From the NCBI GenBank assembly GCA_918797485.1, contig CAKKNE010000001.1, positions 558,001 to 622,000 of the forward strand: 64,000 nucleotides of DNA. Reading direction: 5' to 3'. Below the pieces are notes generated by a model. The model made no database searches. It was not told the DNA's origin and was given only the letters and a program-made list of their open reading frames with translations. Numbering within the stretch: the first letter of the stretch is position 1; every line of letters starts with the position of its first letter. The position numbers and the translations under genes were made by a program. Source of the DNA: Pelagomonas calceolata (lineage: Eukaryota; Sar; Pelagophyceae; Pelagomonadales; Pelagomonadaceae). Positions 5,141-63,393 of the stretch are shown here, piece by piece.

Positions 5141-5162
5141 CTAGCGGCATGTAAGACACTAG
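5141..5162 (-). promoter_or_regulatory. CTAG-bounded promoter motif, copy 1
   Basis: Twenty-two bases with CTAG at both ends. Read on the minus strand it begins CTAGTGTCTTACA and ends GCCGCTAG. It sits in the 340-bp divergent promoter of TBCE and the U5-40K-like gene, directly beside an ATATAAAG string. It nearly matches the two copies at 17888 and 17925. Confidence 0.6.
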
Positions 5163-5312
5163 AGCAAAGCGGCAAGCCGGCCTTTTGCCTCGCCGAGAGG
5201 CGGCAGCAGCTCAACGCGGCCGAATAGATCATCTAAAGCCTACCCACACGCCATCGCTGCGATCCATCGCAGCGCCGTCGCCCACCGTCCCTCTGCAGAC
5301 CTCAAACCAGGC

Positions 5313-6365
5313 ATGAGCATCGTCCAAGCCCAAAAGAAGCGCCGCGGCAACAATGAAGTGGCGGTAAGACTGCCGAGTTCGAGCATCGCGACGAGCGGCC
5401 CCGGGAGTGGGTTAAGAGCGCTACAAGAAGAGGACGACGAGGAGCCCCGCACAAGTAACTTGCAAGCCCCGATCATGTTACTGAGCGGCCAGGACGCTCC
5501 CGTCTACGGCGTCAAGTTCTCGCCGACCGGCGACGTCCTCGCGTCGGCGGGCGCCGAGAAGGCGATTTATCTGTGGGAGGTCTACGGGGATTGTGCAAAT
5601 TACAACGTCCTCCGAGGTCATCAAAATGCCATCCTAGACTTATCCTTCTTTCGGGACGGGCGAACTTTGGCGACGGCTTCTGCCGATAAGAGTGGCGCCT
5701 TGTGGGACGCCCATAAAGGTAAAAGGAAGCGGAAATTACCTTGTGCTTCGATAGCGAACGGCTGTTGCGCCGGGTCGATGGACGACCACGTCGCGGTAGC
5801 CTGCGACGATGGTTCGGTATTGTTGTGGGACGCTAGACAACGGAAGCCCGCCAAACAACTACAAACGCAGTACGCGCTATGTGCGGTCGCGTTGGAAGGT
5901 TCGGAGAATCGGGTCTTCGCCGGCGGCCTCGATAATGTGATTAGAGGATGGGACCTGCGGAGCGACGAGGTCGTGCTGGAGTTAAAAGGCCACGGGGACA
6001 CGGTCACGGGTCTAAGCCTGTCGCCGGACGGCTCTCGGTTGCTCTCGAACAGCATGGATAGTACATTAAAAGCGTGGGACGTCGCGCCCTTCAGCCCGTC
6101 CGAGCGGTGCGTCGCGACCTTCGAGGGCCACTCGCACGACTTCCACAAGAATTTATTGCGGTGTTCTTGGTCCCACGACGGCGAAAAGGTCGCCTGCGGC
6201 TCGGCGGACCAGATCGTCCACGTCTGGGACGTCGCCTCGACGGAGGAGTTGTACTACCTTCCGGGACACAAGGGAGCAGTGACCGAGGTCGACTTCCACC
6301 CGAAGGAGCCGATCCTCGCGTCGGCGTCGTCGGACACGACGGTATACCTGGGGGAGATCGCGTAA
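5313..6365 (+). CDS. SNRNP40: WD40 U5 snRNP 40-kDa protein (Prp8-binding)
   Basis: 350 residues; a seven-bladed WD40 propeller begins at about residue 50 (first blade GQDAPVYGVKFSPTGDVLAS). Repeats end in WEVYGD, WDAHKGK, WDARQRK, WDLRSDE, WDVAPF, WDVAS and the terminal YLGEIA. The acidic N-terminal stretch, the LLSGQDAPVYGVKFSP blade and the blade order match SNRNP40, a U5 snRNP component that contacts Prp8 in the spliceosome. The ATG at 5313 is 150 bp from the shared CTAG motif. Other WD40 proteins are possible, but the length and N-terminus favour this one. Confidence 0.85.
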   Translation: MSIVQAQKKRRGNNEVAVRLPSSSIATSGPGSGLRALQEEDDEEPRTSNLQAPIMLLSGQDAPVYGVKFSPTGDVLASAGAEKAIYLWEVYGDCANYNVLRGHQNAILDLSFFRDGRTLATASADKSGALWDAHKGKRKRKLPCASIANGCCAGSMDDHVAVACDDGSVLLWDARQRKPAKQLQTQYALCAVALEGSENRVFAGGLDNVIRGWDLRSDEVVLELKGHGDTVTGLSLSPDGSRLLSNSMDSTLKAWDVAPFSPSERCVATFEGHSHDFHKNLLRCSWSHDGEKVACGSADQIVHVWDVASTEELYYLPGHKGAVTEVDFHPKEPILASASSDTTVYLGEIA

Positions 6366-6450
6366 GTAGTCTTTGCCTTTAGAGCTAGCAGTCCACCTAG
6401 GCGCAGGCCTGCGTGACCAGCTGCGCGATCGTACGCCCGGCCCCCAGTAC

Positions 6451-6819
6451 TCATGCGCCGTCGCCCCGAGTGTTCGCTCGGAGGCGGTGGCCTCCACGGC
6501 ACGCCGTCGCCGAGACGACCAGCCGCGGCTTCTTGGGCGCCGGTCCCGGCGAGACGACGCCAGGCGGCGGCGTGATCGTCACCCGCCGCAGGCGCTCCTC
6601 CTTTTGTTGTTTCAGGACCGCGTCGTCGTCCGCTTGCGCGACAGCGCGGCGCAGCGCGAAGTCGTGGAAGATGGCCGGGAAGTCGCCGCCCAGCTGCTCG
6701 GCGCGGTCGGCGAGCGCCGAGCAGACGCTCTTCGGCGACGACGCGTCGGCTTCGAAGAGGCTGACGCCCTCGACGAAGTTCGTCGGCAGCGTCGGCAGCA
6801 GGGGCCGGTCGGAGGCCAT
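6451..6819 (-). CDS. Small hypothetical protein
   Basis: 122 codons, convergent with the WD40 gene. The first about 85 residues look protein-like (SLFEADASSPKSV, FPAIFHDFALRRAVAQA, then a charged helix). The last 25 are Arg/Gly-rich and look like read-through, so the true 3' end may involve an intron and an exon in another frame just downstream. No family recognised. The composition suggests a small helical adaptor, but no function can be given. Confidence 0.4.
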   Translation of the reverse strand: MASDRPLLPTLPTNFVEGVSLFEADASSPKSVCSALADRAEQLGGDFPAIFHDFALRRAVAQADDDAVLKQQKEERLRRVTITPPPGVVSPGPAPKKPRLVVSATACRGGHRLRANTRGDGA

Positions 6820-7517
6820 TGCGGAGGAGTGGAATTACCTGTTAATCTCCTCGCAGGGTAGGCTTGGAACCTTCCTGATCACCTTCCTGGTGCGCCTGGC
6901 CCTCGTCGAGCGCCGGGAGCCTCTGGTTCCTCAGAGGCCCGCTTTCCGCGTTTGCGGCCGGAACGAGATTATACTCAGACCACGGGGTTTCTTGGGCGCA
7001 GGACGCTTGGAAGGCTCAGAATATTATAGCTTTGGCCTCTGAAGGCGCCGGGACCGCGAGGCGCACTGCAGCGCGCGTTAACTTTGTGTTCTCGGCGCCA
7101 GCCACAAAAAATCGCGTTTCTCGCGGATCCGCGCGCGGTTTCGCGCCAGCTCCCGCCTTAATGTCACTGCGGGAACCTTCCTGAGAGCCACGGGGGCTCG
7201 AGACTGCAAGGGGGCCGAGCGCAGAGCCGACAAAAATGGATATCTCTCTCGCGAATGAAAACCCGGCCCAGGTTTTGAATAACCGAGCCCGTGCCGAGTG
7301 CCGAGCCCGTGGACGCACGCAAACGCCGTCCACCATGAGTCTTCGGATTGATCCTCGCGTAATTGATAGCCAAAGCATCACCGCGCGGTTGCGACTCGGC
7401 GCCGTCGCGCGAGCGAGCAGAGGTCCTGTGACAGAGAAAAGCACCGGCCCCCAAGGCGTCGACGCGACGTCTGTTAATAATAAACCATATTAAACAAACT
7501 CTCAGCGGGAGAAAGAA
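6820..7517. other. Intergenic region, no gene seen
   Basis: About 700 bases between the 5' end of the small minus-strand gene and the 3' end of the DUF4239-like gene. The reading frames present are interrupted or low in complexity. No repeat, RNA gene or promoter motif was recognised. Confidence 0.4.
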
Positions 7518-8812
7518 CTAGATGTGTTCAGAACCAGGCGGCCACTCGGGGTCGTCGAGGGCCGTCCGCTTGCACGCGACGTCGCAGATCAGCGCCTCCC
7601 GCAGCGGAAAGAACTGGGCGACGGTCGACGTGATCCGGTACGCCCCGCGGAACGGGTCCGCGATGTCCGTGACCACGGACCCGACGCCCGAGAACACGCC
7701 GATGAGGATCGTGAATAACAGCCGCAGTTGGAGTGACGATAAAAACTGCAAGACCTCCTGGTCCGTCTCGACGAGATACGCGAGCACGATCGACGCGGCG
7801 ATGGCCGTCAGGACCGCGTAGTGGACGGCGGGATACGTCGTCGCGAGGTGGGCCAGGCGCGCTGATCGCCTTTCAGATAACGTGGCGACGAGCGCGTGCA
7901 GGTTGTTCTGGTAGGTCGACGACGCGTCGGCGGCGGTCTCCGACAAGAGGGAGGAGAGCGCGCCGAGCTCGTTGTTCGGGACGGAGACGCTCTCCTCGGA
8001 CCTGCGACGCGACATGGTAACTGCATCTGCTCGATAGCGTGGAGGTTCACGAAGGCCTCCGCAAATATTCTCAGGATAACCGCCGCGGCTCTCTCGCAGC
8101 CCGCGTCGACGGCGCGGCGGTGGTGTAGATGTCAGGGGCGAGACGGCGCAAACAAAGACGCGAGACGGACACAGGCAGCGCACGACCGCCCGCTCGACTC
8201 CTGGATCACCCGCGCCACATATCCTTCCAGCAACAACGCCGCGCGCGCGTCGGCCTCGCGCGCGTTCATCGTCGTGGCTCCCCGAAAATTCGCGTCGAGC
8301 CCGACCCTTAACAGCTGCACCGCCGAGAGCTCCTGGTTCAGCAACACGCGCAGATCCAGCTGCCGCTGCCTCAACGTATTCACGGTCGTGGCCACGAGCG
8401 TACCGAACGATATCGAGAGGGAGGGCATCACAATACCAATGAGAGTAGGGGTAAGTATATTGATCTCGTACTGGCCGCCGTCGACCTCGACATACGGGGC
8501 GTTCTTCACGAGTTCGAAGACCGCTCTAAATGCTGCAGCGACGTAGGGGTAGGCGATGAACGCAAAGCCCGGCGCGACGATCGGTGCCGCTCGTAACGCG
8601 AGGTCAAAGCCGCGCGTCTCCGTGAGCAAGTCGTCGAGCGTCGCACTGATGTCGGCGTCGTCGGGCGGCAGCACGCAAAAGTCGTCGGCGATGGGCGTGG
8701 CTCTTTGTCGCGTTGTGCTGCGCGGTGGCAGTGATGGCAGCAGGGCTGCTGTTTGTGTCAAAGCGATTGCTAACAGCAGCGCTCGCCGTCGTCGTCGCAG
8801 CGTTCGAGGCAT
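7518..8812 (-). CDS. DUF4239/bestrophin-like membrane protein, two exons
   Basis: Exons 8812-8187 and 8001-7518 join in phase 2 across a GT-AG intron (8002-8186), giving 369 residues; the junction reads SSGR-SEESV and keeps frame. The N-terminus has a basic stretch then a hydrophobic signal-like segment (ALLLAIALTQTAALLP). Hydrophobic helices include APIVAPGFAFIAYPYVAAAF, LTPTLIGIVMPSLSISFG, YAVLTAIAASIVLAYLV and LLFTILIGVFSGVGSVV. The closing TDIADPFRGAYRI resembles the DUF4239 signature, a family related to bestrophin channels. Organelle location is possible given the N-terminus. The family call is tentative; the two-exon membrane protein is well supported. Confidence 0.65.
8002..8186 (-). 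other. Spliceosomal intron in the DUF4239-like gene
   Basis: 185 bases, donor GTCGTGCGC, acceptor GTCGCGTCGCAG. Near its 5' end it has CTGCCTGTGTCCG, which resembles CTGTCTGTGTCCG at the 5' end of the leucine-rich-gene intron at 12590-12661. Removal restores frame (phase 2). Confidence 0.75.
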
Positions 8813-9231
8813 CGCTGCGCCGGCGTAACGCCACGATTATTGCTATCTGCGTACGCGTACAGCAGCTCGGAGCGCCGCGGTGCTGCAGCACCCATCACAA
8901 GTGCTGCCCTTCGGACCTCCCGCGCCGCGAGCGCCTCGAGGGCTCCCCAGGCGCTCCGAGCAGCCGTATTACGACACAAAAAGGGGCATCGGGCCGCTCG
9001 CTGGTGGGCAACCCACTAGCGGCAACTTTGCCCAGCGCCCTCGGTCGACCGCATTTGCCGGGCTGAGGACGCGAGGCTGAGGCTCCGGGCCTACAGAGCT
9101 CGACATAGTTGCTCCGGATCTCGCGGAAGCCAGGGAACCGCTGGCCGCAGCGCAGCCGCGCGCTCACGAACCCAGAGGGCGGGCAGCCTGGGCAGCCCTC
9201 CGCGCGCGCGTCCGCGGCGGGGTAGGAGACC
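8813..9231. other. Divergent promoter region
   Basis: About 420 bases between the divergent DUF4239-like and EF-hand genes. A partial CTAG element (CCACTAGCGGCAAC, near 9011) is present without a second CTAG end. Nothing coding recognised. Confidence 0.35.
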
Positions 9232-9978: not shown

Positions 9979-10004
9979 GGTTTGACGGGTAACTTCTTTA
10001 CTCA

Positions 10005-13187: not shown

Positions 13188-13209
13188 CTAGCTCTAAGCA
13201 AAGCAAAGG
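13188..13209. repeat. 22-bp dispersed repeat, copy A
   Basis: Twenty-two bases starting CTAGCTCTAAGC, identical to 48924-48945. Here it lies between divergent genes, and its TCTAAGC can pair with GCTTAGA just downstream (about 13214-13220). Function unknown. Confidence 0.45.
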
Positions 13210-13506
13210 TTGTGCTTAGATGCTTTGTAGAGGGCTGCCGAACAGGGGGCTGCCGAAAATCGATGCCGTTCCAAGGTACAGTGTGCGCAACGTGCAGATG
13301 GCTGCCCTGGCTTGCTGGCGCTCACCGCTTTTGCATTCGCATCGCATTGATTGTGCTGGACTTCAACACAGTCCCAGAAGACGAAGAACCAGGCCCTCTG
13401 GAAACGGACTAGAGCCGCGCGGCGCAAGGCCAAGGCCGCGCAGTTCAATTCACAGAAAGTCGAGGACTCCAACGTCACACCGCCGCCGGCGCCGTCCCCA
13501 GCGAAG

Positions 13507-14626: not shown

Positions 14627-14646
14627 CTAGTATGTCAACCGGCTAG
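14627..14646 (+). promoter_or_regulatory. CTAG-bounded promoter motif, copy 4
   Basis: Twenty bases, CTAGTATGTCAAC then CGGCTAG. The CTAGT.TGTCAAC half matches the copy at 44555-44572 (read on the minus strand). It lies about 210 bases upstream of the TPR gene and beside the divergent acidic fragment. Confidence 0.55.
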
Positions 14647-17887: not shown

Positions 17888-17909
17888 CTAGTGTCTTACA
17901 GGCCGCTAG
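17888..17909 (+). promoter_or_regulatory. CTAG-bounded promoter motif, copy 2
   Basis: CTAGTGTCTTACAG then GCCGCTAG, 22 bases, nearly identical to the copy at 5141 read on the opposite strand. Located between the divergent EEP and SUMO-like genes. Confidence 0.6.
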
Positions 17910-17924
17910 CGCGCGGCCTGCTTG

Positions 17925-17946
17925 CTAGTGTCTTACAGCACGCTAG
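17925..17946 (+). promoter_or_regulatory. CTAG-bounded promoter motif, copy 3 (tandem)
   Basis: CTAGTGTCTTACAG then CACGCTAG, 22 bases, 37 bases after copy 2. The shared unit is a 25-base exact direct repeat (17877-17901 and 17914-17938). Confidence 0.6.
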
Positions 17947-19534: not shown

Positions 19535-20788
19535 CTACTGAATCCCCGGGACGCGCCCCGGCGCCGGAGCGCTGCCGAAGCGCGCCTCGACGCCCGGCAG
19601 CACCCAGCGCACGTCGGGAACGAGCCAGCACAGCAAGAGCCGATACAGCACACTCACGAGGACGTCGTCGCGCGGCGGCACGAGTTGGGCCGACGTGACC
19701 GTCGTCCGCGGGTCGTGGTTCCGCGCGTGCGGGTTCGCCACGGCGAGCGCCGCCGCGGAGCCCGCCGTGATCACCGGAAAGTCGACGTCCGATGGCACGC
19801 GCGCGGCCTGCACGTTCTTCGGATCCACAACAAGTAACGCGGCGCCGCCGTCGCTCTTCGCCCGCGCGACGAGCTCGCGGATGCGCGCGTTCCTTCGGCG
19901 GCGACTGTCGTCTTCAGCGAAGGCAGCAACAAGTAACTTGTGGCGCACGGCCATGCGATCCGCGACCTCGTTCTCCTCCTCCGTGCGCCGCCTTCTTAAG
20001 GCCGCGAGCGTTTTGCGAGTCTTCATGCGTGGTTTTGAGGAAGCATCTCCATTACTATCGAAGGCCGTCCCTCCCCCAACAATGGCGCCCGAGAACAGTC
20101 TAGGCTCGAGGGGCCACCGCGCCTGTCTCGCTTGCTTCGACGCGCGCACGGCATACGCGCCGCCCAGCGCGTAGGTCCCGCCCGACAGCTCCAGGACTCG
20201 TGCGGACGCGTCGAAGTCGGGCACCCAGATGCCGTTGCCCGGTTGCGTGGAGTGGCAGGACTGGCGGTTGTCTATTAATACACCGCGCCGCAACGGCGAG
20301 AAGATGGTCAGAGCTTTCCCGGAAGAGGGCTGGTCCGCTTCGATCTTGTCGAAGAGGTTTGAACCGGCCGCTTCCTCGAGCAGCCTCACCACGTTCGCCG
20401 CGTAGCCCGCGGACGCGGCCGTCGACACGCTCTGGCGGCAGCCCGGTAACGCGTGCAGTACTTTAAGTACTTGCGCCGCGTTCGGCCTTATCGTTGAGAT
20501 GAAGTGCAGCGCGTCGTCGTCGACGTGCTCGCATTCACTGGAAGACAGGCGCAAGATTTGCATGGCCTGGTCCGCGCGCCACTTGTTGTCGATGCGCTCG
20601 GATGAGATTAACGTTTCATCTAAATCCCAGACGACGTGCAGCGGGTAGGCCGTGTTATGTAAAGCGACGCAGCCGACGTAGCCGACGGTGCCGCCCGCGA
20701 GGCGCGATGCTGCCTTACGAAACATCTTACGTCGCGTCGGCTGCGCTTTGCGACGCGTATGGTGCAGGTGGTGATCTCGGGTGGCCAA
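19535..20788 (-). CDS. HAD-superfamily (FCP1/NIF-like) phosphatase domain protein
   Basis: 417 residues. HAD motif I is VVWDLDETLISSERID (nucleophile Asp in DLDET, about residue 55). A later RRGVLIDNRQSC is consistent with the motif III/IV region, and STIRPNAAQVLKVLHAL with the cap-side segment of the NIF/CTD-phosphatase group. The N-terminal hydrophobic stretch ASRLAGGTVGYVGCVAL may be a membrane anchor or transit segment. The C-terminal 200 residues, Arg-rich then hydrophobic, match no domain I know. Substrate unknown. Confidence 0.65.
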   Translation of the reverse strand: MATRDHHLHHTRRKAQPTRRKMFRKAASRLAGGTVGYVGCVALHNTAYPLHVVWDLDETLISSERIDNKWRADQAMQILRLSSSECEHVDDDALHFISTIRPNAAQVLKVLHALPGCRQSVSTAASAGYAANVVRLLEEAAGSNLFDKIEADQPSSGKALTIFSPLRRGVLIDNRQSCHSTQPGNGIWVPDFDASARVLELSGGTYALGGAYAVRASKQARQARWPLEPRLFSGAIVGGGTAFDSNGDASSKPRMKTRKTLAALRRRRTEEENEVADRMAVRHKLLVAAFAEDDSRRRRNARIRELVARAKSDGGAALLVVDPKNVQAARVPSDVDFPVITAGSAAALAVANPHARNHDPRTTVTSAQLVPPRDDVLVSVLYRLLLCWLVPDVRWVLPGVEARFGSAPAPGRVPGIQ

Positions 20789-21251
20789 TGCGCCGCCACT
20801 CGCAATGCAAGCAGTGAAATCGATGCGCCCTCAGCTAAGGCTGCCAGAGGAGGGTGCGAATCAGTGAGGCCGGCCTCTGAGGTGCAGCTATACGGCCACT
20901 ACCGGCGCCGCGCCGTCGAGCTGGCATGCGCAATTCGGGTTTGCGCAGGCATCGTCGCGCGGCACCAGGCGTCTTCTTCAGAGCAGATATATGTGCGAGG
21001 AGTCCCGTAATTCAAAACAGGGCTCCTTCCTCTCGGACGGAAAAACCCGTGCCTGTCGATAATAGCTCGAGACTACACGCCATACGCGACGCAAAGCCAT
21101 CACTGGACAGCGCACGTAGCGGCATAGCACTGCCTGACAGCCATCATCGCGACAAACAAGCAATTTTGGTTCAAAACGGCTCTCCTGGCGTGAACTGAGA
21201 GCAGTGCAAGCATCTCAGTCCGCAGCACGCCATCGACGCGCATCAACACCA
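20789..21251. other. Divergent promoter and NMD3 leader
   Basis: About 460 bases between the HAD gene and NMD3. CACGCCATCGACGCGC near 21229, 20 bases before the NMD3 ATG, resembles the introner core, so a spliced 5' leader is possible. No CTAG-bounded motif was found here, unlike most divergent promoters in the window. Confidence 0.4.
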
Positions 21252-27558: not shown

Positions 27559-28202
27559 CCTGTCTGTGCAGCACTGCGTACGCGCGCGGCACTGCTCAAG
27601 CCAGTGCTTGTAGTTATTGGAAATGCGCGACGACGGCGTGGCACAAACGAACACAGTGCTGTGGCTATTGTGTTGTAGCGCGGCGACGGCGCGTGAGCGC
27701 AAACTGACACCAGCACGAGGTAAAGCGATTAAAAATAGAATATATCCGAGCACGCGAGCACAGATAGCGGCTTATACGGCTCAATTTGCGCCGATTCCGG
27801 TTTGCTGGTAAAACCCGTTTTCCGAGCCCAAAAAAGGAAGCTGCGCCCCGAGGACTTCTATCACGCGTAGAGAGGAGCTCGGGGACGCTACGGGGCCGTA
27901 GCATCGCGGCCAGGGCTAGGTGTTTTTTGTGTTTTGGGCTGCCCAACCGGCCGCGCCGCGCAGGGCCTAAACCGCCCGCAGAGCCACCGGGGCTGCCTCG
28001 CGGAAGCGCAGGCGGCTTGGTACAAACCAGCACTCGTCGACGTCGAGCGCCGCGCCTCGCGCCGCCCACCGTGCTGTGTGGAAGGCCGCTCCAGAGGAAC
28101 CGGTGAAAGCTGGACTCCTACCCGTCCTTCGGCCAGGAGGAGCACGCGGAAACCAAGGACTTCCTACGGAAGCAGATCGCCCAGTACGAAGCGAGTCTAA
28201 AA
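27559..28202. other. Divergent promoter region and IFT88 leader
   Basis: About 640 bases between the glycosidase and IFT88. The last 93 bases (28110-28202) form an in-frame, coding-like extension of IFT88 without an ATG. A T-rich string at about 27921-27937 is otherwise the only feature noted. Confidence 0.4.
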
Positions 28203-33008: not shown

Positions 33009-33028
33009 CTAGCGTACATCGACACTAG
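33009..33028 (-). promoter_or_regulatory. CTAG-bounded promoter motif, copy 5
   Basis: Twenty bases, CTAGCGTACATCGACACTAG. Between the divergent hydroxylase-mTERF and EF-hand genes, about 190 and 250 bases from their starts. Confidence 0.55.
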
Positions 33029-35116: not shown

Positions 35117-35594
35117 CTGCCAAGGTCTCCTCTTTGTGCACGGTCAACGGCTGCCCGGCGTTTCGTAACGGCTGCCCGGCGTTTCGTATCGACTTGTGTG
35201 ATGCAAGATCACTGCCTTTTGCTGCACTCGCTGCCGCGCGTCGCAATGGGAGGCGAAACACACCCACTCAAGTTTTTGCTGCTGGCTGGACCCGCACGTA
35301 ACGCAAGCGGTTTCTTGCTCGCGCTGGTGCTTGTTCAAGGGGTCTTGACGCCTGCTATGGATCCATCGGATGATTCCGCGCGCTGGCTCTCCGGTCCAAC
35401 ACACTGGCACGAGCCCCTGTAGCAGTGGCGAGAAATACGTGCGTGCGTGTTGTCGAAGCCAGTAGGCGCGACTGAGAGTACCTCACAAGTGTCTCAAAGA
35501 GTCGCCGCTGCAGCCGCGCCGTTTTCGCTTCATTCCGAGGCGTTGCAAGCCCGCAGTGTCAGACTGTAGGGGCTCCCGCCGCGCGCCAAGCCGA
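35113..35594. other. Divergent promoter region
   Basis: About 480 bases between the Cys-rich secreted gene and the GTPase. Besides the two short duplications nothing was recognised; there is no CTAG-bounded motif. Confidence 0.4.
35147..35188. repeat. Exact 21-base tandem duplication
   Basis: Two adjacent identical 21-base units (containing GGCTGCCCGGCGTTTCGTA) in the intergenic region upstream of the Cys-rich secreted gene. Confidence 0.9.
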
Positions 35595-37538
35595 ATGAAA
35601 CTCGTCGGCATGGCCCTCCTGTTGGGCGCATGCCGGGCGCTGCGCCCCGCCGCCCGGCTGACGCGCACGCGCCTCCGCGCGTCGACGACCGTCGCCGAGG
35701 ACACCGTGCCGCCCGTCACCTTACTAAGTGGTTTTCTGGGAGCCGGCAAGACGTCGATGCTCACGTCCATTTTACAGAACCGAGAAGACCTGAAAGTAGC
35801 GGTGGTCGTGAATGATGTGGCCGCGGTGAATGTGGATGGATCTATTGTGAAAAGAGAGTTAGTAGAAACGGACGGCGAGCCCGTCGAACTGTTAGAACTA
35901 CAGAACGGGTGTGTCTGCTGCGGTCCCGAAGCGGGCGAACTCGCGCAGAGCATAAGAGGCATGGTGAAGGGGCGAGGCTTCGACCACGTCGTCGTCGAAC
36001 TGAGCGGCGTCGCGGACCCGTCGGTCGTCAAGGCTAATTTAAAACAAGGAGATGTGGATGTGGAACGAGTGGTCACGTTGGTCGACGCGCCGGCCTTCTG
36101 CGAGCAGTGGATGAGTTATGATGTGATGGAAGATAGGATTAAGGACGACAATGAAGATCCTTACCACCCTACAAGCATGAAGAAGGCTTTGGCATCCAAA
36201 GCTGATCTGGAGGCCGATCCCTGTGCGGCGGGGCAAAAGGTCGCCGCTTTATTAGCGGCGCAGGTCGAGTGCGCTGATGTGATTGCAGTTAACAAAATCG
36301 ACCAGGCTGCTCAAGATACGGAGCAGGCCGTCGTCACGTGCTCGGCGTTGATGCCCGACGCGAAAGTGCTGCGGACGGAATATGGGCGGGCGCCGTTATC
36401 TGAATTATTACCGGAGAAGTGCACTGTGAGCGGTGAAACGTTGTCGACGTGCAGTGAACCGTGCTGCGACGAGGTTTCAGGACACGAGTGGGCGGGCGTG
36501 TTCTCACTGGAAGAGGGTTCATACGAGTGGACGGCGCAGCAAGTAGGTGGTAAATATGCGGATCCGGCCATGCGGATGGTCGTGTTGCGGGCGTCTGGTG
36601 TGACGCGGGACGCTCTTGAGAGTGTAGAAGGGTTGGGCGAGGCGCTGATCAAGAGCGACAAGTGTGTCGACGTCGAAAGTGGCGGTGTTATTACCCCAGG
36701 CAAGTGCTACAACCTCGTCTTCGACCAATCATCTGAGGAGACCAAGTTTACCATAGAAAGTAGTGGTCCAACCGCGATCTTCACGGAGCACTTTCCCACG
36801 GAATTCGAGGCGGATACACATTATTTACGACGGAACGGCGAGGATATCGAACCCGCAGCAGAGTTAGGAGAAAGCGGCCACTCGCACGAGCACGGGCACT
36901 CGCACGACTTGCCGAGCCACGCGACGGACTTCGGCAACTTCGTCTACACGCAGAAGCGGCCCTTCAACTACGATAGATTACTGGGCATGATCTCGCGGTG
37001 GCCGATCCCGCAGAAGACGATGCTCGACGTGCGCGACTTGAAGCCGGGCGGCGCGGGCGTGAAGGGCGTCGAGTCCCCCTGGGAGAGTGTTTTGCGGTCC
37101 AAGGGCACGGTCTGGTTGGATACGCATCCCCGCCGCATGATTCAATGGGCTTATGCCGGAAGGCATTTCGGCCTCGACGACGTGGGGCCCTGGGCCGGCG
37201 ACGAGCAGAAATCGGAGATCGTGATCATCGGCCAGGGGCTGGACGAAGCGACGTTACGGAGCGACTTGGACGAGGCGCTGTGTACGGATGCTGAGTTGGA
37301 CGAGATGGAAAAAAGAGTCGAGGGCGGCGGGGGGTTGCGGTTCGCGGTGGGCACGTCGGTAGAGTGCAACGTCGGCGACGAGACCTGGATGCGCGGCACG
37401 GTAGTAGCTTTAGACTACGTGGAAGAAGGCTGGGACCAGCCCGCGCCGTACCAAGTCGAGCTCGAGGACGGGACGCTCATCTTCGCGCCCATCGACGAGG
37501 ACTGGGTCATCCGCAAACAGCTCGCGGCGAAGGCGTAA
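35595..37538 (+). CDS. COG0523 (CobW/ZNG1-type) metal-chaperone GTPase
   Basis: About 647 residues from ATG 35595 (MKLVGMALLLGACRALRPAA, a likely targeting sequence; the frame opens at 35556). Hallmarks: Walker A GFLGAGKT, the metal-binding CxCC (NGCVCC), VVELSGVADPS, the guanine-specificity motif NKIDQ, a His-rich linker (GHSHEHGHSHDLPSH), and a CobW C-terminal segment (RPFNYDRLLGMISRWP). These GTPases deliver Zn or Co to client enzymes. Beyond the usual C-terminal domain there is a SH3-like final part (GTSVECNVGDETWMRGTVVAL). Longer than bacterial homologues (about 350). Confidence 0.88.
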   Translation: MKLVGMALLLGACRALRPAARLTRTRLRASTTVAEDTVPPVTLLSGFLGAGKTSMLTSILQNREDLKVAVVVNDVAAVNVDGSIVKRELVETDGEPVELLELQNGCVCCGPEAGELAQSIRGMVKGRGFDHVVVELSGVADPSVVKANLKQGDVDVERVVTLVDAPAFCEQWMSYDVMEDRIKDDNEDPYHPTSMKKALASKADLEADPCAAGQKVAALLAAQVECADVIAVNKIDQAAQDTEQAVVTCSALMPDAKVLRTEYGRAPLSELLPEKCTVSGETLSTCSEPCCDEVSGHEWAGVFSLEEGSYEWTAQQVGGKYADPAMRMVVLRASGVTRDALESVEGLGEALIKSDKCVDVESGGVITPGKCYNLVFDQSSEETKFTIESSGPTAIFTEHFPTEFEADTHYLRRNGEDIEPAAELGESGHSHEHGHSHDLPSHATDFGNFVYTQKRPFNYDRLLGMISRWPIPQKTMLDVRDLKPGGAGVKGVESPWESVLRSKGTVWLDTHPRRMIQWAYAGRHFGLDDVGPWAGDEQKSEIVIIGQGLDEATLRSDLDEALCTDAELDEMEKRVEGGGGLRFAVGTSVECNVGDETWMRGTVVALDYVEEGWDQPAPYQVELEDGTLIFAPIDEDWVIRKQLAAKA

Positions 37539-37571: not shown

Positions 37572-38303
37572 TCAGCGGGAGAGGGCGCGGTTCAGCGACG
37601 CCTGGCGCATGAGGCCCCGCGGCCGCACGACCACGCCGCTCTCCACGATAACGTCTTCGCTCGATCGCTCCATCGCCTCGACGACGGGGCCCTTCGCGTT
37701 GACGACGACGACGGCCGGCTTCTCCAGTAAACTCTTCGTCATGAACGCGCTGCCCCAGCCCTCGTGGCAGCAGCCGTAGGGCCGGCCGAAGCACACCGTC
37801 ACGAAGCAGCACTCGCAGCACTCGTCGCAGCCGTCCTGGTGGGGTTGCTCCTCGAAACCGAACCGCTGATACAGCCCCTGCGCCCGGTTGCCCCGTAGTA
37901 CCGCGAGCGACATGACGGTGTCGCCTCTCAATACCGCTTGCGCTTCGGCCCACTGAAGAAGCTTCGTGCCGACGCCCTTGCCCCGCGCGTCGGCGCTCAC
38001 GGCCAATTCCTCGACGTAGAGCTCGCCCGGCTTCGGTTTATGTAAATCACATTTCATGCCGTGGCCGCAGCAGTACACGAAGCCCAGGACCTTATCCGTG
38101 GCCTCGTCGACGGCGACGGCGTAGAGCGCTTTGTGCTCGGGCGCCTGCTTCTCGCGCTGCGCGCGCCACTCGCCGAAGCCGCCGCAGCACGACCACGGGA
38201 GCACGCAGCAGAACTTCTTCGAGGACAGGAAGGCGTGTTCTATCTCATAGTTTTCGCGGTACCTCGCTGGGGTCAGGACCTCTATGCGGATGCTGGACGC
38301 CAT
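37572..38303 (-). CDS. GNAT acetyltransferase with Cys-rich loops, paralogue 1
   Basis: 243 residues. GNAT motif A is VEELAVSADARGKGVGTKLLQ, the acetyl-CoA pyrophosphate loop, preceded by KVLGFVYCC and followed by VMSLAVLRGNRAQGLYQRFGF (motif B). Two unusual Cys clusters interrupt the fold: KFCCVLPWSCCGG (about 30-43) and CDECCECCFVTVCFGR (about 158-173). They occur in the same places in the next gene, so they are a conserved lineage feature, perhaps metal-binding or lipidated. Substrate unknown. Confidence 0.8.
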   Translation of the reverse strand: MASSIRIEVLTPARYRENYEIEHAFLSSKKFCCVLPWSCCGGFGEWRAQREKQAPEHKALYAVAVDEATDKVLGFVYCCGHGMKCDLHKPKPGELYVEELAVSADARGKGVGTKLLQWAEAQAVLRGDTVMSLAVLRGNRAQGLYQRFGFEEQPHQDGCDECCECCFVTVCFGRPYGCCHEGWGSAFMTKSLLEKPAVVVVNAKGPVVEAMERSSEDVIVESGVVVRPRGLMRQASLNRALSR

Positions 38304-38500
38304 ATCGCTGCGGCGGCGTGCGTGGGACTGTGTCTAGGTGACCCTGATGACCAGATGTGTGATGCAGCGCAGAAAATCTTCTTAGAATCGTAGGGATGGT
38401 TTCGCTGGACAACCAGCTGTACAGGCGCGTCCTGCCGTATTCAAATCCTTAATCAGCTGTGCCGATTCACCGTTCGAGCCTCTCTCGACCCGGCATGGAG

Positions 38501-38521
38501 CTAGCGGTAGTAAGACACTAG
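38501..38521 (-). promoter_or_regulatory. CTAG-bounded promoter motif, copy 6
   Basis: CTAGCGGTAGTAAGACACTAG; on the minus strand it begins CTAGTGTCTTAC like copies 1-3. It lies 200 bases upstream of the first GNAT gene and 7 bases past the end of the second. Confidence 0.55.
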
Positions 38522-39198: not shown

Positions 39199-39218
39199 CT
39201 AGTGTAGTAACATACTAG
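39199..39218 (+). promoter_or_regulatory. CTAG-bounded promoter motif, copy 7
   Basis: CTAGTGTAGTAACATACTAG, 20 bases, between the divergent second GNAT gene and the zinc-ribbon gene. Confidence 0.55.
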
Positions 39219-40017: not shown

Positions 40018-40944
40018 CTAAAGGCTCGCAGCGAGGACGGCCTCCTCGATGTTCCCGATGCTCAGGGGCCCCGGCTGCGGGCCCTCGTCCGCCTCGGCAA
40101 AAGGCGTGCCGCCCCCTACGATGGTTTGAAAAGCCCGGTCGCCCGCGGCCTCGTCGTCCATGAACTCCACCTTCGCGTGCGTCGCCTCGTCCAATAAGGG
40201 GCGGATGCCGCGCCACGCCGCCGCGAAGAGCGGCGGCGCGCCGATCAGGATCGCCTTCTTGAGCGGGTACTGCCGCGCCACGTCCACCAGGCGCTTCGTG
40301 CACCTTAACGCCACGGGCCGCATGAGCTGCGGCCGGTTCGCGAGCTTGACGAGGATCGTCGGGCCCTCGTAGGCGTCGCCGCCGCCCCGCTCTTCCACAA
40401 GTTTCGCGCAGACCTCGTAGTGGAAGGCCACGTAGCGCTCAAAGGCGTCGACGCACTCGTCCGTCGACCACGCGTCGTAGGTCCAGGGGTGCCAGCGGCG
40501 GCCGTCAAAGAGCATGGCGACGTCGTGCGGTTCTTGCGCTTTCACTATACGTAAAGTGCCGCTCGCGCAGGCCGCGGGCGCCGCGGTCGGTAATGCCAAT
40601 GAAGTCGGCTTGACGCGCGCGAGCCAGGTCACGTGGGCCCTCAAATCATCCACGGGCGCGCCGACGTAGCGTTTCAGGGTCCGCGTCGATAATTGTAAAG
40701 CCGCGTCGTTGCGCGCCTTGCGCACGGCGGGGTCGAGGGCCGCGAGCGCCTCGTCGCGCCGCGCCGCCGGCGTCTTCGCGTCGTCGTCGTCGTCGTACAT
40801 TTCCTCGGCCTCGACGAGCGCGTCGGGCGTGCTCGCGAGGACCTGGAGGAGCTCCAGCGACATGGGGCCGTCGCTGCTGCCCGACGAGTCGCGCGAGACC
40901 TGGGGAACCGCTTCGGCCTCCTTAGATGTGTCCATGGCCGACAT
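40018..40944 (-). CDS. CRAL-TRIO (Sec14-like) lipid-binding protein
   Basis: 308 residues. Acidic, Ser-rich N-terminus, helical CRAL-TRIO-N segment (AVRKARNDAALQLSTRTLKRY), then the lipid-binding core: TILVKLANRPQLMRPV, VDVARQYPLKKAILIGAPPLF, WRGIRPLLDEATHAKVEFM. The NAPxxF gate motif of Sec14 appears as GAPPLF. Expected to move or present phosphoinositides or other lipids. Its promoter carries a CTAG-bounded motif 227 bases upstream. Confidence 0.75.
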   Translation of the reverse strand: MSAMDTSKEAEAVPQVSRDSSGSSDGPMSLELLQVLASTPDALVEAEEMYDDDDDAKTPAARRDEALAALDPAVRKARNDAALQLSTRTLKRYVGAPVDDLRAHVTWLARVKPTSLALPTAAPAACASGTLRIVKAQEPHDVAMLFDGRRWHPWTYDAWSTDECVDAFERYVAFHYEVCAKLVEERGGGDAYEGPTILVKLANRPQLMRPVALRCTKRLVDVARQYPLKKAILIGAPPLFAAAWRGIRPLLDEATHAKVEFMDDEAAGDRAFQTIVGGGTPFAEADEGPQPGPLSIGNIEEAVLAASL

Positions 40945-41170: not shown

Positions 41171-41188
41171 CTAGCGGTAACACACTAG
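41171..41188 (-). promoter_or_regulatory. CTAG-bounded promoter motif, copy 8
   Basis: CTAGCGGTAACACACTAG, 18 bases, upstream of the CRAL-TRIO gene and downstream of the membrane-protein gene. Confidence 0.5.
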
Positions 41189-42384: not shown

Positions 42385-44349
42385 TTACAACAACAAAGAA
42401 GACGACTGCGCCAGTAGCCGCGGCCGCATCGCCTCCACCGTTCCCGCGAACGCCAGCAGCCGCGCGGCGTAGAACTCCGCAGGCACCGTCGCCGCGAGGG
42501 CCTTGGTATCGGGATGAACGAATGCCGTGCGAACAAACGTAGGCTTCGCGCCCGGCGGCGGCGCCGCGACGACGTCGAGGCGCTGCGCGCGGATCTGCGC
42601 AAAGCTGAAATGCACCCGCTCGTCCGTCGGGTCCGCGGGGCAGACGACCGTTCGCCCGCCAGCGCCTGGCGCGATCAGGATCGGCCACGACGCGTCGACG
42701 GGGCGGAAGCCCAGGCTGGTCAGCGCCCGCGCGACGACGGGCTTCGTCTGCGGTCTAGCACGTACATCTGCATCAACTAAAACACCAAGCGCCGCCAGAG
42801 TCCCCAACGCGAGCTTGGCCAGCCCGCGCCCCCGCTGCTCCTCGGCGACCTCGACGCCGCGCACGTGGATTGCCAACTCGTCGACCTCGCAGAGAATGCG
42901 CGCCGCCTTCGCGCCCTTCTTCCTATCATTGCCAAGGATCAGCGAGAACCGCTCGTGGCCGTCGAGTTTATCCCGCAGCAGCGCCACGTCGTAACCCTCA
43001 ACGGTCCCGACGAGGCTCCGGCGCGGCGGTCGCGACGGCCCCGCGTCGGCCGCCAGCGACCGCGCGATGGCGGCGCCCTCCGTCAGCAGCGTGCTGTGCG
43101 CGGCGGCCAGCGCGAGAATGGTTAAGAATCGCGGCACGAGGGGCAGCGTCGCGGTCATCATTTGGTCGTGCTGCGAAAGCTGCGTTTCGAGTCGACCGCG
43201 CCGCGCGAGGTCGGCGTAGGCCGTTTCGAGGAGGTGGGGCTCGTGGTGCTTGTACGACAGCACAGCGGCCGCGCTGGCGGCGTCGTCGAGCACTTGTGGC
43301 GCGGCGAGGCGTGGTGCCGGTGAGAGAGCTACCATTTTGCACGGCGCGACGGCGACGGTGACGTCGGTTTCCTGGGCCGCGCGGAGGGCCGCGAGGGGGA
43401 CGCCGGCGCGCTTGCAGAATTGTTCGTCTGTTGTCGTCGCGCTATTGAGGACTATGGCAGGATCAGCCCCGGCGGCGCGGCAAACTTCGAGTCGGGGCCG
43501 GTATCGTGTTTTGAGGCTGTAGCCCAGACGAGCTGGCGAGGATACTATTGAAGCGCGCACTTCGGATGGAGAGAGACCAAGCTCTTCCTCGAAGAAGCCC
43601 AGCTTTGGCTGTATGTTGGCCTCGACGCTGTAGCTCAGCAGTGCCGGTAGCCGTAGCACCATCATCCTCAGCCCCGCGTCGTCCAGGTGGAAGCGCGTCT
43701 GCAACCACTGAAGCTTCGGCTCCATGTTGTCCTCGACACTTTGATACACCAGCGACGGATTCGTCATAACCATCTTCCTCAGCTGCTCGTCATCCAAGTC
43801 GAGGCGCGTCTGCAACCAATCGAGCTTCGGCTCCATGTTGTCCTCGACGCTGTAGCTCAGCAGTTGTTGTTTTTTCACAACCAGCTTCTTCAGCTGCGCC
43901 GCGTCCAGCTCGAGGCGCGTCTGTAGCCACTCGAGCTTTGGCGCCAGGTTGTCCTCGATACTGCAGCCCAGCAGTTGCGGAAACTTCATCACCATCTTCC
44001 TCAACTGCGCGTCGCCCAGGTCGAGGCGCGTCTGCAGCCAGTCGAGCTTTGGCGCCATGCTGTTGTAGCCCAGTAGTGCTGGGAAACGCATTACCACTTT
44101 CTTCAGCTCCGAGTCGCTCAGCCCAAGCTCGGACTGCAGCCAGCCAAGCCTTTCCTCGGCTTGCGCGCGAGTCAAGCTTTTCGCGCTGCTCGGAATCAGC
44201 TTTCCCTCGACCTTGCTGGCCTCTGCCGCCGTGCAGCCCAAGGCCTGGACGCAGTAATCGTAAGCAGCCCCTCTACACGCCACAGCACCTGATGGCCTGG
44301 AACCCGGCGCCACGAGCGCGGCGGCGCCCGCCACGAGCAATAACATCAT
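42385..44349 (-). CDS. mTERF-repeat protein joined to a GNAT-like acetyltransferase
   Basis: 654 residues from ATG 44349 (MMLLLVAGAAALVAPGSRPS, signal/transit-like; the frame opens at 44502). About seven mTERF units (about 55-300), several nearly identical (APKLDWLQTRLDLGDAQLRK, LLSYSVEDNMEPK), then the GYSLKTRYRPRLEVCRAAG cap shared with the paralogue at 30696. From about residue 396 a second, hydrophobic-started region (MMTATLPLVPRFLTILALAA) leads to a GNAT fold with acetyl-CoA loop VEVAEEQRGRGLAKLAL near 500. No stop separates them, so this is either a true fusion or two genes with an undetected boundary. A fusion would be organelle-directed. Confidence 0.7.
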   Translation of the reverse strand: MMLLLVAGAAALVAPGSRPSGAVACRGAAYDYCVQALGCTAAEASKVEGKLIPSSAKSLTRAQAEERLGWLQSELGLSDSELKKVVMRFPALLGYNSMAPKLDWLQTRLDLGDAQLRKMVMKFPQLLGCSIEDNLAPKLEWLQTRLELDAAQLKKLVVKKQQLLSYSVEDNMEPKLDWLQTRLDLDDEQLRKMVMTNPSLVYQSVEDNMEPKLQWLQTRFHLDDAGLRMMVLRLPALLSYSVEANIQPKLGFFEEELGLSPSEVRASIVSSPARLGYSLKTRYRPRLEVCRAAGADPAIVLNSATTTDEQFCKRAGVPLAALRAAQETDVTVAVAPCKMVALSPAPRLAAPQVLDDAASAAAVLSYKHHEPHLLETAYADLARRGRLETQLSQHDQMMTATLPLVPRFLTILALAAAHSTLLTEGAAIARSLAADAGPSRPPRRSLVGTVEGYDVALLRDKLDGHERFSLILGNDRKKGAKAARILCEVDELAIHVRGVEVAEEQRGRGLAKLALGTLAALGVLVDADVRARPQTKPVVARALTSLGFRPVDASWPILIAPGAGGRTVVCPADPTDERVHFSFAQIRAQRLDVVAAPPPGAKPTFVRTAFVHPDTKALAATVPAEFYAARLLAFAGTVEAMRPRLLAQSSSLLL

Positions 44350-44554: not shown

Positions 44555-44572
44555 CTAGCGTTGACACACTAG
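44555..44572 (-). promoter_or_regulatory. CTAG-bounded promoter motif, copy 9
   Basis: CTAGCGTTGACACACTAG, 18 bases, in the divergent promoter between the mTERF-GNAT gene and the membrane-protein gene at 44708. Confidence 0.55.
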
Positions 44573-46787: not shown

Positions 46788-46810
46788 CTAGCGTACTATA
46801 AAGACACTAG
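46788..46810 (-). promoter_or_regulatory. CTAG-bounded promoter motif, copy 10
   Basis: Twenty-three bases, CTAGCGTACTATAAAG then ACACTAG, the longest spacing in the set. A TATAAAG lies inside it. Between the divergent Lin0512 and asparagine-synthetase-domain genes. Confidence 0.55.
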
Positions 46811-48923: not shown

Positions 48924-48945
48924 CTAGCTCTAAGCAAAGCAAAGG
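48924..48945. repeat. 22-bp dispersed repeat, copy B
   Basis: Identical to 13188-13209. Here it lies in convergent intergenic DNA, without the downstream pairing partner seen at copy A. Confidence 0.45.
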
Positions 48946-48958
48946 GAAAAAAACGGAA

Positions 48959-52099: not shown

Positions 52100-52119
52100 C
52101 TAGCGTACAGGGACTCTAG
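52100..52119 (-). promoter_or_regulatory. CTAG-bounded promoter motif, copy 11
   Basis: CTAGCGTACAGGGACTCTAG, 20 bases; the right half is ACTCTAG rather than ACACTAG. It lies 135 bases upstream of the ankyrin-cupin gene. Confidence 0.45.
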
Positions 52120-55677: not shown

Positions 55678-55695
55678 CTAGTGTCTTGCAGCTAG
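55678..55695 (+). promoter_or_regulatory. CTAG-bounded promoter motif, copy 12
   Basis: CTAGTGTCTTGCAGCTAG, 18 bases, between the divergent helical-protein and D-glutamate cyclase genes. Confidence 0.55.
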
Positions 55696-57078: not shown

Positions 57079-57141
57079 CTTAAAGGTTCTAGCGGAATGA
57101 AGCGTCTCAAAGAAATATCTGGTGTGCATGCCGTCGGCTGC

Positions 57142-57807: not shown

Positions 57808-57911
57808 GGTGCGCGTGTTTGGCTGCCCCGGGTGGGATGTTGCGGCTGCGAGTGCAGTGCTGGCACCTGCTGTGTTGCTGCGTGCGATTGCACGTCGGCA
57901 GAAGCAGTGAA

Positions 57912-57931
57912 CTAGTGTACATACATACTAG
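57912..57931 (+). promoter_or_regulatory. CTAG-bounded promoter motif, copy 13
   Basis: CTAGTGTACATACATACTAG, 20 bases, between the divergent membrane-protein gene at 57807 and the XRN gene at 58295. Confidence 0.55.
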
Positions 57932-60838: not shown

Positions 60839-61119
60839 TTTGTTTGCTGTTCGTAACGTTTGTGAACGCGACCTGTCCATCTCGTGTTCCCCGCGCGCGG
60901 GAAAATCCCGCGAGCGCGATAGGAACCAATCCCACCGCGTCTGAGTCGCTAGCGAGCCGTGCTTCAGCTTTGGTAGACGTTCGATCTCGTCCGGAATTTC
61001 CGGCATAGCGCATTTCCCAGAGTGGGGGGGTCCTCGATGTGCAGACCCAGCATTCAGCATTCGCATTGCAAACCGGGAGCTCCACACAACCGCACAAGTC
61101 TGTTCAGCCGCCGCTACCA

Positions 61120-61392
61120 ATGGCCCCAACTCTAAAAATACGTACCCGCCTTGGCCCTGAGAGCTTCGGCCGCGCGAGTCGCGCGCCAAAAATACCTGTC
61201 TGCCTGGCCTCACTGCAGTACAAGGACTGGTACAAGGAAGATTGCACGGCGTGCACCGGCCCGTGCCGCACAGACGAAGCGCTCACGACGGACGAGGTGT
61301 ACAACGTCGACGATGGCGAGCCCTGGTCCGACGTCGCCGACGTCGCGCTCGTCCGTGGCACATACGACGGAGAGACGTTCGTCGCGGCCTAG
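61120..61392 (+). CDS. Small protein of unknown function
   Basis: 90 residues from ATG 61120 (MAPTLKIRTRLGPESFGRA); the frame opens at 61039. Contains a compact Cys group (YKEDCTACTGPCRTDE) and an acidic end (DDGEPWSDVADVALVRGTYD). Codon use and acidic composition suggest it is real. No family recognised. Confidence 0.5.
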   Translation: MAPTLKIRTRLGPESFGRASRAPKIPVCLASLQYKDWYKEDCTACTGPCRTDEALTTDEVYNVDDGEPWSDVADVALVRGTYDGETFVAA

Positions 61393-61449
61393 CTGCTCAA
61401 ACCTTCACAAGAAATCGCTCCCCCCCCGTCGCATAAGTACCTGGTACGA

Positions 61450-62889
61450 TTAGTTCACATTACCCAGCGCCGCCACCAGCCTCTCGAACGACGGCCGCGC
61501 CGCCGCGTCGCCCTGGAGGCAGTCGTCGGCGACGGCCAAGAGCCGGTCCCGCGTCGCCGCCGCGCCGACGATTCGCGTCGCGACCTCCGCGCACAAGACC
61601 CCGAACGCGCGGACCTCGACGCGCTCGATCAGCCTTTGCGCCGACGGCGCGAGCTCGCCGTAGTAGAACGACGCGCCAAAGTCCCCGAGCTTCGCCGCGC
61701 CCGTCGAATCCAATACGAGCGTGTTGTGGCCGTAGACGTCGCCGTGCGCCACGCGCTTCGAATGCAGGTACCGCAGCGCCTCGGCCAAACCCTTTAGGAG
61801 CGTAATGGAGAAGGCGCTCGAGAAGCGCTCGCCGTCCTCGTAGCGGTCCCGCGTCACTTCTATTATGGTAGGGGGCCTCGCGAGGTCCCTCGCATTCTTC
61901 GTCAGGCGCTCCATGACGACGGCCGGCGGTTCTCGTATGATGGCCAGCGTCTTGATTAATGTGGAAGGCGTCTCCCCAGCAACGCGCTCGTGCACCGCGA
62001 GCTCGTCCCGCGCGGCGCCGTCCGACGACGTCTCGAGCAGCTCCTTGACGGCGCAGGGCGTGCCTTTGAAGGACGCGGACCGCACACTGCCGGAAGCGCC
62101 CTTGCCGAGGGCGACGGCGTCGCTGAAATCGATCCGGGCCATCGTCGTCTCGAGCGCGCTAGCCAGTTGGCCGAAGCCGACGAGCCGCGGGTTCCCGGCC
62201 AGCGCGACCCAAGCTAATCTAGGCGCCCTCAGCACTTCGTCCGGCAGGGACTGCAGGTCGTTGTTCGCGAGGCGCACTAATTCTAGGGATGCTAGGTTTT
62301 TTGAGGGGTTAGTGCCGCCAGTAAACGAAGTGAGCTTGTTGTTCGCCAACATGAGCTTTCTTATAGAAGAGAACTTGCGCCACGCTTCCTCATCGATTGT
62401 CGTAATTTGGTTGTCCGTGAAGATGGCGTGGATTAAGTGCGGGGGTAACGCGTCTCCATGTAACTTGGTGAGGCCGTTGCTCTTGAGTCCCAGGCGCGTC
62501 AGCGACGTCATTCGCGCGAGGACCTTCGGGACACTCTGCATGCGTCTGCTCCCCAGCACGAAGAGGATTTCGAGCCGCGTGCACTTTGCTAACGTCATCG
62601 GTAGGTCCGTGAGGTCGTTGCCTCCTAAATCAAGTTTCTTGAGCGATGCGCACTGGCCGATGGCCGCCGGCAGCTCCGTCAGGCCGCAGTTCCTCAACGA
62701 AAGCTCGACCAAAGAAGGGAGGCGCGGCGCCCAGCGGGGGTTTGTGAGGACGTCGCATGGTATTTCTTCATTATCCTTGGCCTCGTCTTGTCGTGAGAAC
62801 GCGTATAGGACGGCGAACGCTACCAAAGCTCCAGCGAGGGCGACGCGTCGTTGCGAGAGTAGTACGAGCCACGGCTGCGGCTTTGGCAT
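61450..62889 (-). CDS. Leucine-rich-repeat membrane protein kinase-like protein
   Basis: 479 residues from ATG 62889 (MPKPQPWLVLLSQRRVALAG); the frame opens at 63393, but the upstream part contains a CTAG motif and reads as promoter. A signal anchor (ALAGALVAFAVLYAF) precedes LRRs (VELSLRNCGLTELPAAIGQC, LKKLDLGGNDLTDLPMTL, LTRLGLKSNGLTKL). The kinase domain starts near 220: GKGASGSVRSASF, AVKELLE (ATP Lys present), HGDVYGHNTLVLD in place of HRDLKxxN, and KLGDFGASF (DFG present). The catalytic Asp is kept but RD is lost; activity is uncertain. No extracellular/cytosolic split by a second helix is seen. Confidence 0.75.
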   Translation of the reverse strand: MPKPQPWLVLLSQRRVALAGALVAFAVLYAFSRQDEAKDNEEIPCDVLTNPRWAPRLPSLVELSLRNCGLTELPAAIGQCASLKKLDLGGNDLTDLPMTLAKCTRLEILFVLGSRRMQSVPKVLARMTSLTRLGLKSNGLTKLHGDALPPHLIHAIFTDNQITTIDEEAWRKFSSIRKLMLANNKLTSFTGGTNPSKNLASLELVRLANNDLQSLPDEVLRAPRLAWVALAGNPRLVGFGQLASALETTMARIDFSDAVALGKGASGSVRSASFKGTPCAVKELLETSSDGAARDELAVHERVAGETPSTLIKTLAIIREPPAVVMERLTKNARDLARPPTIIEVTRDRYEDGERFSSAFSITLLKGLAEALRYLHSKRVAHGDVYGHNTLVLDSTGAAKLGDFGASFYYGELAPSAQRLIERVEVRAFGVLCAEVATRIVGAAATRDRLLAVADDCLQGDAAARPSFERLVAALGNVN

Positions 62890-63393
62890 CTTTTTTTTTG
62901 GCAGGCCTTGCTCGGCGGCTGCTAGCTTGTTGCTGCTGCTATTGTTACGGCGCATGCAAGGCTGCAGCTGTCGTGCAGCGCAAGCCCCGTTGCCTTTTCC
63001 TTGTGCGCAAACTGTGTCGTCGGCCACGCAAACTCCACCCGACGACTGTGCGTCAAGGACGGCGCGGCGAATGGTCGTGTGCTCGGGGCGGTTGCTGAGT
63101 AGCAACGCTTGCACACCTGCGCTTGAGCTGTGCAACAATGCGTGCCTGCTCAGCTCTTTTGTGTCGACGCCACGACTAACTAGCGTCGTGTAGACACTAG
63201 CATTTTTTTTGCACAGCCCCGATGAATCGGCGACGCGCGGTGTCTCCCCCCCAGGGACTACGCCCACTAGTCCTAGCACCGTAACATCGTCAAACCGCCA
63301 GGGGTCTGCTGCCCCTTCACGCCATCGAGGCAACGTGGTTCGTAGACGACCCAGTTCATCCAAAAACGAATTGATTACCCCCGCAAAAAACAC
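62890..63393. other. Intergenic region between tandem minus genes
   Basis: About 500 bases holding a CTAG-bounded motif (63180) and an introner-core-like CACGCCATCGAGGC near 63323. The open reading frame across it is not protein-like. Confidence 0.45.
63180..63200 (-). promoter_or_regulatory. CTAG-bounded promoter motif, copy 14
   Basis: CTAGCGTCGTGTAGACACTAG; on the minus strand it begins CTAGTGTCTACAC. About 290 bases upstream of the LRR kinase start. Confidence 0.55.

Follow-up and report, generated by a model that had tools for sequence, protein, structure and literature searches.

A directional two-arm CTAG motif upstream of genes in Pelagomonas calceolata, a candidate site for a promoter-organising factor

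Pelagomonas calceolata is among the most abundant eukaryotes of the ocean. In a window of its genome (the whole stretch analysed, 64,000 nucleotides at positions 558,001 to 622,000 of contig CAKKNE010000001.1), 14 copies of a short motif with CTAG at both ends lie between genes (Table 1). All 14 were listed in an original prediction, made from the sequence of the window, and all are confirmed at their positions. A weight-matrix scan of the window finds exactly these 14 sites above 5 bits and no others. The simple pattern CTAG-N8-18-CTAG gives 18 matches against a shuffle mean of 3.4 (maximum 8 in 100 shuffles); the four additional matches are without the arm signatures described below. Eleven copies are between divergent genes, three are upstream of tandem genes and none is in coding sequence. 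This distribution had also been predicted, and codon-based gene models give the same result, with the orientation of neighbouring genes in the window set by the Pfam matches of the flanking genes. Paired copies 35-37 bp apart in one spacer are found in the same orientation at window positions 17888-17946 and in opposite orientation at L040:8224-8279.

Table 1. Copies of the two-arm motif in the 64-kb window, and conserved sites on contigs of a second alga (bin MED672, see text)
Feature	Position	Strand	Context	Score (bits)
Motif copy	5141..5162	-	Divergent spacer: CAP-Gly/LRR gene (3282-4976, -) / WD40 gene (5337-6362, +)	31.9
Motif copy	14627..14646	+	Divergent spacer; degenerate, CTAGTATGTCAACCGGCTAG	17.4
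Motif copy	17888..17909	+	Consensus; first of direct pair in one divergent spacer, SUMO-like gene on right	38.4
Motif copy	17925..17946	+	Second of pair, 37 bp from 17888 copy	37.7
Motif copy	33009..33028	-	Divergent spacer: mTERF gene (-) / EF-hand gene (+)	19.2
Motif copy	38501..38521	-	Upstream of tandem GNAT acetyltransferase gene (37584-38306, -)	39.9
Motif copy	39199..39218	- (best matrix orientation)	Divergent spacer; near-symmetric variant	21.0
Motif copy	41171..41188	-	Upstream of CRAL-TRIO gene (40033-40944, -), tandem	34.4
Motif copy	44555..44572	-	Divergent spacer; mTERF gene (42403-44349, -) on left	26.1
Motif copy	46788..46810	-	Divergent spacer; asparagine-synthase-like gene (+) on right	24.6
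Motif copy	52100..52119	-	Divergent spacer; GLTP gene (-) on left; CTAGAGT left arm, weakest copy	11.6
Motif copy	55678..55695	+	Divergent spacer; D-glutamate cyclase-like gene (+) on right	28.3
Motif copy	57912..57931	-	Divergent spacer; XRN_N gene (+) on right; near-symmetric variant	12.8
Motif copy	63180..63200	-	Upstream of LRR/kinase gene (61453-62892, -), tandem	24.6
Conserved motif sites	L048: 462, 2199, 4291, 5353, 7636; L055: 586, 2686; L061: 2004, 5364, 8487; L044: 7907

The full unit reads TTG-CTAGTGT-STTAC-N4-CGCTAG-CT. It had been described as bounded by CTAG. The unit does not end there, however: a conserved TTG precedes the left arm (71, 75 and 78%) and a conserved CT follows the right arm (82 and 56%), with little or nothing conserved beyond, and the unit therefore spans approximately 27 bp. 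The length with both CTAGs included, measured in 100 listed copies with CTAGTGT and CGCTAG ends, is 19-25 bp, with 22 bp in 61%, 21 bp in 18% and 23 bp in 11%. Of the predicted range of 18-23 bp, the lower limit holds, as 18-bp copies exist, but the upper limit does not, and there is a strong preference for 22 bp. The commonest form is CTAGTGTCTTACAGGCCGCTAG. A minority form has GTC after CTAGTGT, e.g. CTAGTGTGTCGATACGCTAG, and is nearly a true inverted repeat. Both arms carry GCTAGYG in inverted order, with a T in the left arm and a C in the right arm, and STTAC is found on the left only. The gapped matrix was built from 80 genome-wide training copies and consists of a left block (TTG plus 12 bases), a spacer of 0-7 and a right block of 6 plus 3 bases. 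The left block contains 20.8 bits and the right block 11.6 bits, approximately 32 bits together.

Genome-wide counts refer to the P. calceolata assembly of 32,445,274 bases in 8 contigs, and controls are the same pattern or matrix run on the reversed sequence. For RCC100, the published assembly consists of six nuclear contigs (32.4 Mb in total), a plastid contig and a mitochondrial contig, with 16,667 annotated genes and 0.45 introns per gene (PMC9481584). The genome scan for the two-arm CTAGTGT pattern, which the original prediction had proposed as a check, gives 3,430 matches to CTAGTGT-N6-12-CGCTAG against 7 in the control. The left arm alone, CTAGTGTSTTAC, is found 2,723 times (control 1), and CTAGTGTSTTAC-N0-8-CGCTAG 2,386 times (control 0). 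The right arm thus accompanies 88% of left arms, and the arms form a coupled unit. Symmetric forms are rare; T/T forms number about 121 (control 9), some of them belonging to an unrelated identical repeat, and C/C forms show no excess (41 against 52). With the coupling of the arms, this rarity defines a directional two-arm unit and not a simple palindrome. An identical 22-mer, CTAGTGGCGCAAAACTCACTAG (L032:4753-4774), recurs at least nine times on contigs 1-2; it resembles the motif at its ends only and looks like a separate repeat.

Placement relative to genes was determined in an unbiased sample of 194 kb, made up of the window plus thirteen 10-kb stretches taken from six contigs (0.6% of the genome); it is extrapolated to the whole genome from this sample together with 3-kb stretches around 28 further copies. 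The matrix finds 52 matches above 9 bits in the sample and one in the sample read backward. A density of about 50 per 194 kb suggests, by extrapolation, approximately 8,000 copies in the genome. Coding blocks on both strands were decoded by a codon-periodic hidden Markov model trained on long open frames. Among 20 tested blocks adjoining motifs, 17 have Pfam matches, most of them strong.

The motif is present in 19 of 37 divergent spacers, 22 of 59 tandem gaps (some of which are introns), 2 of 39 convergent spacers and none of 149 coding blocks. With a stricter text pattern, 39 copies are found and none is in coding sequence, against 30 expected from its 77% share of the sample. Frequent occurrence in exons, which had been named as evidence against a promoter role, is thus not seen. 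The motif is a feature of divergent promoters, as proposed, but of about half and not of most. Presence is nearly all-or-none, with the best score in a divergent spacer either below 5 or above 11 bits. In tandem cases (n = 36) the median distance from the motif to the following ATG is about 187 bp, and the motif usually follows the preceding stop codon by 40-150 bp. In divergent cases (n = 33) it is about 200 bp from each ATG and central in the spacer (fraction 0.48, standard deviation 0.15; Kolmogorov-Smirnov p = 0.01 against uniform). Motif orientation is indifferent to the genes: in tandem pairs, 15 copies are on the strand of the downstream gene and 21 against it.

A second sequence, GGCAGCC (also GGCTGCCC), is strongly enriched in divergent spacers, at 2.74 per kb compared with 0.21 in coding and 0.13 in convergent sequence. 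It is found in 14 of 16 divergent spacers that lack the motif, e.g. at window positions 8692-9225, 20703-21242, 27559-28108 and 35117-35596. GGCAGCC is possibly a second promoter element that belongs to the other promoter class. Another string, CTAGCTCTAAGCAAAGCAAAGG, is repeated near gene ends at window positions 13188-13210 and 48924-48950 and is unrelated to the motif.

Conservation of the motif can be followed into a related species. A search of 257 billion bases of prokaryote genomes matched 14 stretches, most of which look like chance matches by their flanks and context, and a search of the viral contigs of IMG/VR gave no match. Several matching contigs belong to the bin 'Spirochaeta sp. 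isolate MED672' of the GTDB genome collection and encode eukaryote-like proteins by their translations; L044, L046/L060, L048, L055 and L061 are eukaryotic. P. calceolata shows synteny with four of these (L044, L048, L055 and L061), at approximately 79-90% nucleotide identity. The contigs are algal and misbinned, several of them pelagophyte DNA, so that the MED672 record carries, as contamination, sequence from a second Pelagomonas-like alga. Orthologous stretches of approximately 35-40 kb contain 11 sites that can be compared; L060 has a motif copy and no orthologous stretch in the reference, and is outside the comparison.

The motif is present in both genomes at all 11 orthologous promoters. 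The CTAG ends are intact in every pair, and the middles differ by substitutions and indels. Of the 10 bases just outside the motif, a mean of about 3 are identical on one side and about 6 on the other (10 pairs measured), and at least one of the two 10-bp flanks is close to or at chance identity in the majority of pairs. In one strong pair (L048:5353 and L058 reverse complement 7294) the motif is in opposite orientations, and in a weak pair (462/414) the orientation may differ too. Presence of the motif is kept between the two species and its strand need not be, which fits selection for binding and not for the sequence as such. A dispersed repeat of about 157 bp, found at L048:299-455 and about 35-40 places in the genome, is common to both species and is possibly an introner or small transposon.

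The composition around the motif gives hints of where transcription may start. A/T tracts cluster 6-26 bp outside both motif ends, with TTTT at 0.024 per bp there compared with 0.003 at 40-100 bp, but only 46 of 98 flanking arms have a tract within 40 bp. Outward from the motif, T content is 0.22 before a point about 160 bp away and 0.14 after it; the drop persists in arms whose ATG lies 230 bp or more from the motif, with a 99% interval of 0.05-0.12 for the difference. A CpG dip is present 120-160 bp from the motif in all arms, with a borderline contrast in the subset with a distant ATG. The shift in composition, placed at about 140-160 bp from the motif, is robust in T content and borderline in CpG, and hints that transcription may start at that distance. 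A search for an initiator consensus about 120-175 bp from the motif gave none above the level of control stretches, and TATA enrichment was not seen in the arms.

The reading that is favoured, and considered rather probable, is that the motif is a double-stranded DNA site recognised by one abundant nuclear factor, or a complex, which is sequence-specific and organises the promoters of RNA polymerase II. What is directly observed of the motif is its grammar, number of copies, placement with respect to genes, indifference to orientation, arm coupling and conservation; protein binding, opening of chromatin and starts roughly 150 bp away on either side would be the work of the putative factor. The left arm, TTG-CTAGTGT-STTAC, would be read by one protein surface and the right arm, CGCTAG-CT, about two helix turns off, by another, probably that of a similar partner subunit; a flexible linker would accommodate lengths of 18-25 bp. 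Bound at the middle of a spacer of roughly 300-400 bp and aided by the flanking A/T tracts, the factor would keep the promoter open and allow a start on one side (tandem genes) or on both sides (divergent genes). From its central position and orientation independence, the motif may serve both divergent genes. The proposal that the motif is a promoter element is strengthened by its exclusion from coding sequence, strong 5′ enrichment, near-absence between 3′ ends, fairly constant distance to the ATG and conservation in orthologous promoters. The inverted GCTAGYG of both arms makes the further proposal of a dimeric factor plausible, but the arms are clearly unequal, and a plain symmetric homodimer is therefore not what the motif indicates.

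The distribution between genes bears on several other explanations. An ordinary transcription factor site for a large regulon (e.g. a light, cell-cycle or nutrient response), and not a general organiser, would account for the nearly all-or-none presence; with thousands of copies next to functionally unrelated genes (tubulin-cofactor-like, WD40, mTERF, GNAT, XRN, GLTP, asparagine synthase), it is unlikely, though it keeps some weight. Somewhat less likely is a core promoter element that the basal machinery contacts at a fixed position relative to the start, equivalent to TATA or an initiator. Great abundance, location 5′ of genes, a preferred ATG distance and the absence of TATA enrichment speak for such an element, but the motif is found in either orientation and midway between two genes, some 190-200 bp from either ATG, and is absent from about half of divergent spacers. 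Its distance and symmetry make TFIID-type contact unlikely unless 5′ untranslated regions are very long. A gene-boundary insulator or replication-related element, with no part in transcription initiation, would also lie between genes, and in tandem pairs the upstream stop codon is often no more than about 100 bp from the motif; convergent boundaries, however, almost never carry it, and the ATG-side distance is more constant than the stop-side distance, so that this explanation is given little credence.

Conservation and arm structure weigh on the two remaining explanations. CTAG at both ends resembles a 4-bp target duplication, and an insert of 10-17 bp between duplicated CTAGs, of the sort that transposons or introners leave, would make the motif a small mobile element or the footprint of an excision; one site is reversed between the two species, and introner-like elements are reported for the P. 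calceolata genome (PMC9481584). Against this, all 11 compared sites are common to both species with no empty site, no copy is in coding DNA, and the arms are conserved and the middle variable both among genome copies and between species. Conservation also reaches the TTG and CT outside the CTAGs, and these two do not repeat one another. The footprint is rejected, as these flanks are not target duplications and the sites are shared, and a mobile origin is very improbable. The shared sites, lack of empty sites and lack of flanking duplications likewise agree with the earlier view that the motif is not a miniature inverted-repeat transposable element. Scarcely credible is an RNA element in which the CTAGTG and CGCTAG arms pair as a hairpin. 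The arms are complementary save for one G-U wobble, on one strand only, but versions that pair fully are much scarcer, the two orientations with respect to genes are balanced, and an Rfam search of the window gave no match. Indifference to orientation disfavours an RNA role, and a strand-specific one is refuted by the balanced orientation and the lack of preference for full pairing.

Several points count against a site for a promoter-organising factor as well. A rigid two-site factor would not usually go with variable arm spacing. The motif is entirely missing from about half of divergent promoters and therefore cannot be the sole promoter-defining signal. The CpG dip as a hint of the start site is borderline where the ATG is distant, and a repeating nucleosome-length CpG wave around the motif was not detected beyond the first shift. 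The gene models come from a home-made codon model and are predicted from sequence.

A broader proposal, put forward tentatively and viewed with more doubt than confidence, is that pelagophytes have a promoter-organising system of their own. The 27-bp two-arm site would be read by a factor specific to the lineage, possibly a multi-finger protein or a domesticated transposase-like one, and this factor would define about half of the nuclear promoters, instead of TATA/initiator logic or the factors of yeast, plants and animals. Searches of the open-access literature for the motif sequence, a pelagophyte promoter motif or promoter specification in P. calceolata found nothing relevant, in agreement with the earlier statement that no equivalent is described. 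The motif gives a direct handle on the genes of one promoter class and their probable start positions, and a bait for isolating the putative factor. In genomes and metagenomes of pelagophytes it can help to annotate genes (orientation and 5′ ends), and it can reveal algal contigs that were misbinned, as with the MED672 bin.

Among known systems, introner elements of pelagophyte genomes (Huff et al., 2016, as cited in PMC9481584) are like the motif in being many times repeated and having bounded ends. They differ in being introns of about 200 bp inside genes; the motif is 18-25 bp, outside coding blocks and common to orthologous sites. Sp1/GC-box-type elements of compact genomes, e.g. in the bidirectional promoters of Amphimedon (PMC4773876), resemble the Pelagomonas motif as the promoter element found most often in a compact genome, commoner still in bidirectional promoters, and as a pair of motifs independent of orientation, but the GC-box is short and peaks at the start site, whereas the Pelagomonas motif is long, CTAG-based and about 190-200 bp from the ATG.

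Sites of the yeast general regulatory factors Reb1, Abf1 and Rap1 are abundant, long and intergenic, often accompanied by poly(dA:dT); they are orientation-tolerant, serve divergent genes and are kept across species. The Abf1 site is also in two parts. Reb1 and Abf1 are tied to nucleosome-depleted regions of budding yeast promoters (PMC12541377). The Pelagomonas motif is similarly of high information, present in a large share of promoters, excluded from coding sequence, independent of orientation and adjoined by A/T tracts. Its sequence differs from that of the yeast sites, with inverted GCTAGYG arms, variable spacing, approximately 32 bits and the extrapolated 8,000 or so copies. The general regulatory factors of budding yeast are the closest functional analogy, one that concerns the probable working of the motif and not homology.

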